44,970 nucleotides of DNA. It comes from Thermodesulfobacteriota bacterium. Its GTDB lineage: Bacteria > Desulfobacterota > WTBG01 > CAIYCZ01 > CAIRTM01. The position numbers and the translations under genes are program-made. Position 1 is the stretch's first letter. The number at the start of each line of letters is the position of its first letter. The notes beneath the pieces are model-generated. The model saw only the letters and a program-made list of their open reading frames with translations. It made no database searches and had not been told where the DNA came from. Location of the stretch: assembly GCA_028282925.1 (NCBI GenBank), contig JANQGV010000212.1, positions 1 through 44,970 on the forward strand, given 5' to 3'. Below are positions 25,109 to 29,016 of this stretch, piece after piece.

Positions 25109-25855
25109 CTAAAGAGTGTCCAGGAAATTCACCGTTGCCGTGACGATTTCAGCCGTTTGTTCCTCGCGGCTTATTTCGGCGTCACCGTCTATGGGCTGGT
25201 GATCATCGAGATACCAGCCGAACTGAAAGTGGTTGCCGCCGATGATTTCCGTATAGACAGTGTCGGGAGGCAGGTGCGCCTTTGACTCGTCTATGACGTC
25301 TTTTGGGTAAATACCGTCATTGGCGGCATATATGGAAAGCGCGGTAATGTCGGCTGTGTCAAGCCGATTCTGTTCAGTCGGTTTCGAGGCCCATAATATA
25401 ACGGCGTCGACTGCGCCGGGATTGTCTTTCGCATATTTGCAGGCGGCAATGCCGCCCATTGAATGGCCGCCGATGGCCCATGTTTCAATTGTATCAAAGG
25501 CCTCGACTACGGTATCCGCCCGGCCCGGCGCCAGCAGCGCCATGTCCCGGGGCATGGCAACCGGTACAACCAGGTAGCCGGCGGCGGCTATGTCGTAGGC
25601 AGACGGGGCATAGCCGCGTGGGTCTACCTGCGACCCACCATAAAAGATGAAGCCGATTGTCGGTTCCTGTCCGCTGGGCTTAAAAACATAATAGGGTGCG
25701 TCGTCCCAGTCCGCCACAGAGACGGCCTCGTATAAGACTGCATTGTCGCTTTGCAGATACTCCAGAGCCTCGGGCATCGGCGGATGGGCGCTCTGGTTGC
25801 AGGCCGTCAGCATCAACGCTGAAAGGACAATGATGTATGTGTATGTATATTTCAT
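25109..25855 (-). CDS. Alpha/beta hydrolase lipoprotein
   Basis: Lipobox 'LMLTAC', nucleophile elbow 'GGHSMGG', 'GGNHFQFG'; start at MKYTYTY with SD aaggaga. Confidence 0.85.
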   Translation of the reverse strand: MKYTYTYIIVLSALMLTACNQSAHPPMPEALEYLQSDNAVLYEAVSVADWDDAPYYVFKPSGQEPTIGFIFYGGSQVDPRGYAPSAYDIAAAGYLVVPVAMPRDMALLAPGRADTVVEAFDTIETWAIGGHSMGGIAACKYAKDNPGAVDAVILWASKPTEQNRLDTADITALSIYAANDGIYPKDVIDESKAHLPPDTVYTEIIGGNHFQFGWYLDDHQPIDGDAEISREEQTAEIVTATVNFLDTL

Positions 25856-25873
25856 AGTTCTCCTTTTCGGCAA

Positions 25874-27814
25874 TTATCGGGCGTTACGCACCAGGGTATC
25901 GATCAGCGGCATAATCGACGTCAGCGTAGTTGTTGCTGCCGTTCTGCAGGCCGGATACGCCCTGCAGGCCTTTTCCACCAGCGGGGCCAGGTCGTAATAC
26001 GTCTCAATAAACACGTTGCCCAGGGCTGTTTTTGCCAGTACCCGGTCGCGGAACTGCCGCAATGTTGCAACTGCAGGAGCGTCTGTGCCCAGGGCCGCGG
26101 CAGTGGGGCACAGGGTTGTGCCGGGTGCGCCGGTTCGCGTAAGATTGTACCTGAACATGGGCCAGGATTCTTTTTCATCATCCGGGGCCTTGAGACAGTA
26201 AAAGGTATTGTCGTAGCTGCCGACGTACAGCCGCCCGTCTACCAGGGACGGTGACGATACAACGATGTCACCGGTTTTAAAATTCCAGAGTTTCCTGCCG
26301 GTGCGGGCCTCAAGGCAGTAGAGGTTTTTATCGCTACTGCCCACATACACGTAGTCGTCGGTAACAGTGGGTGAGCTTTGAATGATGCCGCTTGCGGTGA
26401 ATTGCCACGCCAGGCTTCCGTCTTCAACATTCACACAGTACAGGCTTTTGTCAAGACTGCCGAAATAGACAAAATCTTCGTAGACAGCAGGAGAGTTGAA
26501 ACAAATGTCCCCTGTTTCATAACTCCAGATTTTTTTTCCGGTTTCTGTATCCACGCAGTAGAAGGAGTGGTCTTTGCTGCCGAAGAATACTCGTCCGTCT
26601 GCCACAGCAGGGGAGGGTGGAATGTCGCCGCCGGTTTCATAGGACCACAGCAGGCTGCCGGTTTTGGCATCCAGGCAGTACAGAAAATAGTCAACCCCGC
26701 CGATATACACTTTGCCGTCCACAACCGCCGGCGTTGAAAAGACATCCTGGGTGGTTGTGTAGTCCCACACCTTGGTGCCGGTTGCGGCATCAAGGCAGTA
26801 TATTTTATCGTCATAACCACCGATATACAGGTACCCGCCCCACAGGGACGGTGACGACTGGACCGCCTCTTCGGTTTCATACTCCCACACCTTGGTACCG
26901 GTTGCGGCATCGAGACAGTAGACCTTGAAATCGTTACTGCCGATGTATACGTATCCGCCGGATACCGCCGGAGACGATAAGACAACATTGCCGGTTTCAA
27001 ACTCCCATATTGTAGTGCCGGTTTCGGCGTCCAGGCAATATACCTTTTTGTCGCCGCTGCCGAAGTATACATTGTTGCCGGAGATCGCCGGTGAGGATGA
27101 GACGAGGTTGCCGGTTTCGAATTCCCAGATAATGCGCTCGGGGTCACCTGCTCCCCGGACCTCAAAGCTGCACAGGATTTCTTCGGTTCCGGTTGTGACC
27201 GAGACGGCGCAACTGGCATCGTCGGCATCGTCGGCAATATCGATCATTGCAGCGATTTCATTAGCACTGACAACTGAATAGCTGATCAGTTCTACCTCGG
27301 TGCAATCGATGGTAACAGTCGTAGTGGCATTGTCGAAAGAGGTTTCGGTGCCGTTGATGGTAAGGGCTATGCCGGTTTCTCCGGCCGAGGCAAACGAAGG
27401 CTCAAGACCGCCGCAACGTGGACCGCTCAGGCGCTTTACGCCGCTTGCAAGATCATAGTCGGTAAAAACGGTGCCGCTTTCAAAGGCATCACCGGCGGCG
27501 TTTATGAGCAGTTCGTGGGAGTCCTGCTCTTCGCCGAGTTGTTTGGATTCGGTATAGACAAAGTTGGGATAAAAAGATACCTGGATAATTTGAAATGGTG
27601 TTGATGTGCCCCCTTCCGACGGGGTGCTGGTACCCACGGCCTGACAGGGGATGTTTGATGACGTGCCGGTAATGATTTCATCGACGACCCATACGCAGGT
27701 GGAGCCGTCTTCCTTGGTAACGTCCCAGGTGCCGAGCCAGACGTCGCAATCCGTTGCGGCAAAGGATGGACCGGACAGGCAGAGAAACAGTACAAAAAGA
27801 ACAAGTTTTTTCAT
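25874..27814 (-). CDS. Exported PQQ-like eight-bladed beta-propeller protein with CFI-box-like C-terminus
   Basis: Signal peptide 'MKKLVLFVLFLCLSGPSFA'; eight ~40-aa repeats 'SSPAVSGGYVYIGSNDFKVYCLDAATGTKVWEYET'; C-term 'LCPTAAALGTDAPAVATLRQFRDRVLAKTALGNVFIETYYDLAPLVEK'. Confidence 0.92.
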   Translation of the reverse strand: MKKLVLFVLFLCLSGPSFAATDCDVWLGTWDVTKEDGSTCVWVVDEIITGTSSNIPCQAVGTSTPSEGGTSTPFQIIQVSFYPNFVYTESKQLGEEQDSHELLINAAGDAFESGTVFTDYDLASGVKRLSGPRCGGLEPSFASAGETGIALTINGTETSFDNATTTVTIDCTEVELISYSVVSANEIAAMIDIADDADDASCAVSVTTGTEEILCSFEVRGAGDPERIIWEFETGNLVSSSPAISGNNVYFGSGDKKVYCLDAETGTTIWEFETGNVVLSSPAVSGGYVYIGSNDFKVYCLDAATGTKVWEYETEEAVQSSPSLWGGYLYIGGYDDKIYCLDAATGTKVWDYTTTQDVFSTPAVVDGKVYIGGVDYFLYCLDAKTGSLLWSYETGGDIPPSPAVADGRVFFGSKDHSFYCVDTETGKKIWSYETGDICFNSPAVYEDFVYFGSLDKSLYCVNVEDGSLAWQFTASGIIQSSPTVTDDYVYVGSSDKNLYCLEARTGRKLWNFKTGDIVVSSPSLVDGRLYVGSYDNTFYCLKAPDDEKESWPMFRYNLTRTGAPGTTLCPTAAALGTDAPAVATLRQFRDRVLAKTALGNVFIETYYDLAPLVEKACRAYPACRTAATTTLTSIMPLIDTLVRNAR

Positions 27815-28119: not shown

Positions 28120-29016
28120 TTATTCTTCTTTTTCAGGTAGTTCAAAGTCGACATTCCAGAAGCCGTCACGCCAGTATTTCTTAAATGAATCCTTGAATAT
28201 TTTTTTACCCATGTTTACTGCAAAATCGTTCTGGTAAATGCCCAGGATAAGCTCTTTTGATTTTTCCTTGTGTCGTGCTGCATAGGTCGGATCGACTTCT
28301 GCGCTGTGGGCCTTTTTCATATACACGGGCAGTATCATCCTGATGGCCTCCGCCACGGTATGGTAGTATGCTTCGCGCTCGGCGTCGTTTTCGGCTTTTG
28401 GCTCAGTCAGCTCAAAGCGGTACGGGCTTTTGAACGGATCGAGATATTTGGTGATTTCGCCCCGGCCTTCGACACGCTGGTATTTTTCAACCATGGCAAG
28501 GGCCTTTTTGATGGTATCAATATCGCTGCCGAAAAAGGTCTCATACGGGATGTTTTCTTTGTCGACATTGAAAAAATCCATGATGCACAGGCCGGAGGTT
28601 CCCGGTGCGGGCTTCATGAAGTCGATATGCAGAATAGGGGCTTTCACACCGTACCGGGGTCTGATGTTCAGGGTGAAATCGCGATAATAGTCCGATCCGG
28701 CCGGAATTTCAAACTGGCTGATTGTTGCGGTGGCGAGGGTGTCGTTGCTGTAGGCCTTGAGGGGTATTCCGAGCAGATTGCAGCCGAAAAGTTTGTTGAA
28801 CGGAAACGCCAGATCCAGGCTGAATGTGGCGAACTCTTTGGTGATGGGACGCTCGGCTGCATTGTGTTCCTGCAAAAGGCCGAGCATCTGGCTGCGCAGC
28901 TTGTCGAACTCACCATAGTCGCTGAGTTTTTCCGGCTCAAAGGTCATGATAAAAACAACCGCTATTACTATGAGGGCGATAATGCCGATGCCGATGATCT
29001 TCAATACTGTTTTCAT
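28120..29016 (-). CDS. Membrane-anchored protein resembling ferredoxin-dependent bilin reductases (PcyA/HY2 superfamily)
   Basis: N-terminal TM 'IIGIGIIALIVIAVVFIM'; 'PILHIDFMKPAPGTSGLCIMDFFNV' and 'YQNDFAVNMGKKIFKDSFKKYWRDGFWNVDFELPE' match recalled PcyA patterns. Confidence 0.6.
   Translation of the reverse strand: MKTVLKIIGIGIIALIVIAVVFIMTFEPEKLSDYGEFDKLRSQMLGLLQEHNAAERPITKEFATFSLDLAFPFNKLFGCNLLGIPLKAYSNDTLATATISQFEIPAGSDYYRDFTLNIRPRYGVKAPILHIDFMKPAPGTSGLCIMDFFNVDKENIPYETFFGSDIDTIKKALAMVEKYQRVEGRGEITKYLDPFKSPYRFELTEPKAENDAEREAYYHTVAEAIRMILPVYMKKAHSAEVDPTYAARHKEKSKELILGIYQNDFAVNMGKKIFKDSFKKYWRDGFWNVDFELPEKEE

Follow-up and report, generated by a model that had tools for sequence, protein, structure and literature searches.

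Bilin reductases of the FDBR superfamily are known mainly as low-copy soluble enzymes that act downstream of heme oxygenase, in the service of light harvesting or of light perception, and the known members are cytosolic or plastidic. A gene within a stretch of 44,970 nucleotides from a Thermodesulfobacteriota bacterium (hereafter the window) raises the question of what a membrane-anchored relative of these enzymes might do in a little-known group of sediment bacteria; its build is that of the enzymes behind the light-sensing pigments of plants and cyanobacteria. A preliminary description of the window had suggested either a novel tetrapyrrole reductase or a repurposed FDBR fold.

The gene and the distribution of its relatives

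The gene lies on the reverse strand and was annotated as follows.

28120..29016 (-), gene for a membrane-anchored FDBR-superfamily protein of 298 aa (ORF, homologues, AlphaFold2 model, Foldseek)
28939..28998 (-), hydrophobic helix near the N-terminus (residues 7-26), signal-anchor-like, with the N-terminus predicted inside (hydropathy, flanking charge, model)
28147..28911 (-), domain with the alpha/beta/alpha fold of FDBRs, approximately residues 36-290 (order of DSSP elements in the model, Foldseek, hhalign)

Its start codon is ATG, with a ribosome-binding-like GGAGAG immediately 5' of it. Because 12 of the 17 genomes in its class have homologues with 47-60% identity, and 24 columns are invariant across an alignment of 16 sequences, the ORF is a real gene. 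A second, more distant paralogue group shares 32-37% identity with the window protein and has one member in the window genome. When a 16-row profile of the window clade was run against the remaining genomes of a 396-genome sample of the phylum, no member was found. Only four close relatives, from MAGs titled Thermodesulfobacteriota, delta proteobacterium or Proteobacteria, were recovered by scanning one genome per GTDB species, a scan that depends on short exact peptide matches and that distant relatives elsewhere could escape. No relatives were found in viral contigs or plasmids, and a PHROGs search with the window protein returned nothing useful.

Conserved synteny around the gene was not found in its relatives, and an operon with the Sir2 gene was rejected as a functional clue because the window gene has no conserved neighbours. 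Two genes on the same strand were recorded in passing.

25877..27814 (-), exported PQQ-type beta-propeller protein with strongly repeated blades; adjoins the window gene, an arrangement not conserved in the relatives
25112..25873 (-), alpha/beta hydrolase (Abhydrolase_5), probable lipoprotein; the family also adjoins FDBRs in loci L113 and L114

Assignment to the FDBR superfamily

When the window protein alone was searched against Pfam, NCBIfam and PDB sequences, no FDBR was retrieved; PF05996 (cut-off 31 bits) did not match it, and the window-clade profile retrieved nothing from the PDB sequences. The best single-sequence matches, NDUFA11 (0.012) and TatA/TatB-like N-termini, were rejected as helix similarity or chance. 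The predicted structure was clearer. An AlphaFold2 model, calculated from the window and locus sequences only, reached a pLDDT of 92 and a pTM of 0.88, and its best PDB match in Foldseek was PcyA with biliverdin (2d1e, E 2.7e-8, TM 0.69 by target); next in rank were GtPebB, HY2, PebA and RCCR. All matches at E <= 0.001 were FDBRs, RCCR or a chloroplast motor subunit resembling PcyA, and the model thus has the PcyA/RCCR-type alpha/beta/alpha sandwich.

Profile comparisons pointed in the same direction. An HMM of 13 PF05996-positive paralogues from the window genome, containing no row of the anchored clade, recovered the window protein at 1.2e-5, and an 89-row version did so at 8.9e-11; neither matched anything outside the family among 1030 proteins. 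With hhalign, the window-clade profile matched a profile of class FDBRs plus PcyA, PebA and PebB with a probability of 95.2% (E 2.6e-8), as compared with 0.9% for a flavodoxin control; the match to a profile of PcyA, PebA and PebB alone was weak (18.5%, E 0.0013). Among the relatives, one paralogue matched PF05996 (Fe_bilin_red) at E 0.0028, under the cut-off, and the NCBIfam PebB model at 2.5e-5; the PF05996 score of the paralogue in locus L082 was 17.8 bits. PF06405 (RCCR) had no matches among 16 clade members.

A different family of similar fold, for example of the coproporphyrinogen III oxidase (HemF) type, would agree with the failure of Pfam to place the protein, and HemF structures do appear lower in the Foldseek list, just under the E 0.001 line. 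Their E value of 1e-3 is, however, about five orders of magnitude poorer than the 2.7e-8 of PcyA, and the profiles tie the window protein to PF05996 proteins; we therefore rejected kinship with HemF, which we consider highly improbable. From the predicted model and the profiles together, the window protein is assigned to the FDBR superfamily. The preliminary description, whose quoted sequence segments are present in the protein, had made its proposal depend on this fold, and the confident model, the structural matches to FDBRs and RCCR and the profile links to PF05996 proteins bear it out.

An expansion of FDBR relatives in one class

Besides the window gene, 14 loci of the window genome pass the PF05996 cut-off, a number that rises to 16 at E <= 0.01. 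Copies of the expansion lie on contigs C211, C33, C271, C289, C76, C161, C104, C261, C290, C220 and C90, with equivalents in the 12 other genomes. Between 7 and 19 PF05996 copies per genome were counted in 13 of the 17 class genomes, and outside the class no genome of the phylum sample had any. On these comparisons the window protein is part of a lineage-specific FDBR expansion. The four FDBR-negative genomes of the class comprise three from one family and one from the window's own family. The latter (G006) and G011-G013 are without FDBRs, the anchored clade and exported flavodoxin, and form a natural contrast set for tracing the remainder of the pathway.

A tree of the class FDBRs resolved about ten or more deep groups, in which the window clade, on a very long branch, fell on the same side as a flavodoxin-linked anchored group and a third, soluble group (support 0.93). 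The group of L095 matched GtPebB (1.5e-17) and PebA (7e-14) in the PDB. In another group, found in eight of the loci compared, a 2[4Fe-4S] ferredoxin is fused N-terminally to the FDBR domain, a natural union with an electron donor, and the member scanned, that of L074, passes the cut-off for RCC reductase (PF06405). Given these fusions, ferredoxin-driven FDBRs probably exist in the class. The same locus also encodes a further FDBR over the Pfam cut-off.

L074:2697-3674 (-), ferredoxin-FDBR fusion; also in L115, L125, L133, L135, L142, L148 and L151
L074:452-1240 (-), FDBR with an apparently cleavable signal peptide, probably secreted and non-anchored

Heme oxygenase and phytochromes

The preliminary description had seen neither a heme oxygenase nor a phytochrome near the gene, and this absence holds throughout the genome and the class: heme oxygenase (PF01126) and the phytochrome PHY domain were found in 0 of 17 class genomes, with control genomes positive for both. 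HutW/ChuW gave no match over the cut-off in the class genomes, and matches of HutW as a sign of anaerobic heme opening were rejected, all of them being under the cut-off and widespread in control genomes. Since no heme oxygenase was recognised, the cell probably makes no biliverdin of its own, and the substrate would more plausibly be taken from outside.

Membrane anchor and topology

The N-terminal transmembrane helix proposed earlier was recovered both by hydropathy (residues 7-26) and in the AlphaFold2 model (a helix at residues 2-25). All 12 orthologues begin with a short basic stretch (2-3 K/R) followed by a hydrophobic helix some 20 residues long, with no obvious cleavage site, and four related paralogues, in L082, L092, L093 and L094, have lipobox-like motifs at the position of the anchor (LTGC, LPSC, LPSC and LMSC). 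Because a signal-anchor-like helix precedes the domain and these four paralogues look like lipoproteins, the FDBR domain probably lies outside the cytoplasm, as judged from hydropathy, charge and motifs. The charge asymmetry around the helix is weak in some orthologues, and in the flavodoxin-linked anchored clade it is apparently opposite, with K/R after the helix.

The last feature would suit a ferredoxin-dependent reductase that faces the cytoplasm and uses the helix as a tether on the inner face of the membrane, near a hydrophobic substrate. Such an arrangement would also accord with the location of known FDBRs in cytosol or plastid and with those paralogues of the class that carry a 2[4Fe-4S] ferredoxin as a fused domain. 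We nevertheless regard it as improbable for the window protein, as the basic N-terminus precedes the helix in 12 of 12 orthologues and the lipobox-like motifs occur in the sister branch of the window clade. If the extracytoplasmic placement is right, a cytosolic ferredoxin cannot be the electron donor.

An exported flavodoxin as candidate donor

The membrane-anchored FDBR group usually adjoins a signal-peptide flavodoxin-domain protein (Flavodoxin_5, 4e-12 to 4e-14).

L072:6815-7900, L073:2734-3810, L139:5625-6713 and others, flavodoxin-domain proteins with a signal peptide, about 360 aa long, adjoining membrane-anchored FDBRs and an FAD oxidoreductase

By inspection, six of seven long members have signal peptides. 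The C-terminal half has no assignment; the model of the exported flavodoxin was moderate (pLDDT 68), and Foldseek supported the flavodoxin domain and returned nothing for this half. Eight of ten signal-peptide flavodoxins lie within 1.5 kb of an FDBR on the same strand, where the base rate for all genes of the same loci is 0.23 (p 2e-4). Of the class genomes, 12 of the 13 with FDBRs encode such a flavodoxin, and 0 of the 4 without. No exported flavodoxin stands beside the window gene, so that the link to the window protein is by genome co-occurrence only, a pattern common to the other FDBRs. The signal-peptide flavodoxin that adjoins anchored paralogues in the same genomes is the best candidate donor.

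A transport set resembling AmeABCD (DUF1302, DUF1329, YCF48-like and MMPL), which in Castellaniella exports monoterpenes (PMC6394551), was rejected as a partner: it is found near FDBRs in L078, L080, L117 and other loci, and its enrichment was not significant. DUF1329 is present in all 17 class genomes, with 18 copies in the window genome.

Active-site positions and readings of function

Positions corresponding to the catalytic residues of PcyA were located in a MAFFT alignment anchored on PDB chain sequences.

28672..28674 (-), Thr115 codon, aligned with PcyA His88 (MAFFT alignment with PDB chain sequences)
28621..28629 (-), His130-Ile131-Asp132 codons, D132 corresponding to PcyA Asp105 (alignment, clade invariance)
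28225..28227 (-), Asp264 codon, aligned with PcyA Asp220, which is Asp also in PebA and GtPebB (alignments)

Both D132 and D264 are invariant in 16 of 16 homologues, and the hhalign alignment concurs on their equivalence to Asp105 and Asp220. The preliminary description was therefore right about the Asp at position 105; of the Asn-Asp pair that it reported as kept near the C-terminus, the Asp (D264) is indeed conserved and the Asn is not, this position varying between N, K and E. Its impression that His88 is not kept also agrees with the alignment, where Thr115 takes this place. The position of Glu76 is S100 according to the multiple alignment and the invariant E103 according to gap-free spacing. 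Two residues before D132, H130 is invariant in the clade, where PcyA, PebA and PebB have Gly, and from the alternation of the strand it would face the cleft. Loss of His88 alone need not mean loss of activity, because the pre-3 group, which combines Asp105 with Thr at position 88, still reduces biliverdin (Rockwell et al. 2023, PMC10151467).

Since both Asp positions are kept, reduction is the most likely activity, and our leading interpretation, to which we give a probability of roughly 45%, is that the window protein is a putative extracytoplasmic enzyme that reduces a conjugated, bilin-like substrate. The domain would face the periplasm and hold an extended conjugated substrate, with the sheet on one side of it and the C-terminal helices on the other. 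As no heme oxygenase was recognised in the genome, this substrate would come from outside, as a linear tetrapyrrole or a breakdown product of chlorophyll or heme. Protons would come from D132 and D264, and perhaps also from the clade-specific H130, during reduction of the substrate by single electrons. These would be delivered by an exported carrier, because a cytosolic ferredoxin could not reach the domain. Counted against a reductase are the lack of conserved neighbours of the window gene, the loss of His88, the two differing placements of the Glu76 position (S100 or E103), the fact that no source of bilins was identified, the weak charge signals of the topology, the very long branch of the clade and the weak profile score against the three characterised enzymes.

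The main rival is a repurposed, non-catalytic FDBR fold whose role outside the cytoplasm would be the binding of a tetrapyrrole or of some other hydrophobic conjugated ligand, for scavenging, trafficking or sensing. A probable extracytoplasmic site without ferredoxin, the missing His88 and the lack of a fixed redox partner adjoining the window gene would all be in keeping with such a role, and so would the lipoprotein paralogues of L092 and L093, after which come genes for a secreted protein and for a DUF1302 protein of outer-membrane type; the long branch is likewise compatible with lost or changed activity. Mere binding is, on the other hand, difficult to reconcile with two Asp residues that stay invariant in 16 of 16 sequences despite wide variation in the clade, when only 30 of 84 soluble class paralogues have Asp at the position of Asp105 and many have changed it, and with an exported flavodoxin that tracks the presence of FDBRs. 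We accordingly hold this alternative possible, with the odds against it.

An extension of the reductase interpretation to the whole class, which is uncultured, is rather doubtful: anchored and lipoprotein FDBRs, fed by exported flavodoxins, might form an extracytoplasmic redox system that reduces sediment-derived conjugated compounds, such as breakdown products of chlorophyll, heme and phycobilins, without heme oxygenase.

Significance

The fold and the superfamily are already known. The presence of 7-19 FDBR relatives per genome, membrane-anchored, lipoprotein-like and ferredoxin-fused ones among them, without recognised heme oxygenase or phytochrome would point to a new source of linear tetrapyrroles or to a new substrate class for the fold. 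In open-licence papers we found no report of FDBRs that are membrane-anchored or lipoproteins, of an FDBR fused to a ferredoxin, or of an expansion as large as this one. These genes, small and ready for expression, bear on the origins of bilin reductases and on a possible anaerobic degradation of buried pigments.

Comparison with known systems

The PcyA-like subunit of the Chlamydomonas Ycf2/Orf2971-FtsHi motor (PDB 8xqw and 8xks; E 8.8e-8 and 4.5e-6) is an FDBR-like fold in a protein with another job and thereby a precedent for repurposing; it is a eukaryotic chloroplast protein of 555 residues with no sign of specific kinship to the window protein. RCCR (PF06405) shares the fold (PDB match E 2.9e-6), and the ferredoxin-fused class paralogue passes the PF06405 cut-off, whereas the window protein has no PF06405 match and RCCR structures are poorer matches to it than PcyA or PebB.

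FDBRs of heterotrophs were already known, including Schekmanbacteria sequences that group with RCCR (PMC10151467). The pre-PcyA proteins of heterotrophic bacteria resemble the window protein in being FDBRs outside oxygenic phototrophs and, in pre-3, in the combination of Asp105 with Thr88 (PMC10151467). They are tied to globins and heme oxygenases, in the gene cluster or the genome, and the main text of that paper makes no mention of a signal peptide, a transmembrane segment or a flavodoxin; the class studied here differs in its many copies and in the absence of heme oxygenase.

From PcyA, PebA, PebB and HY2 (PF05996) the window protein is set apart by its N-terminal membrane helix and probable export, by Thr in place of His88 and an invariant His130 in place of Gly, by a genome without heme oxygenase and by a position under PF05996 detection. 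It shares with them the fold, the Pro-x4-Asp strand (P127 and D132, equivalent to P100 and D105 of PcyA) and the Asp residues D264 and D147, which correspond to Asp220 and Asp119.
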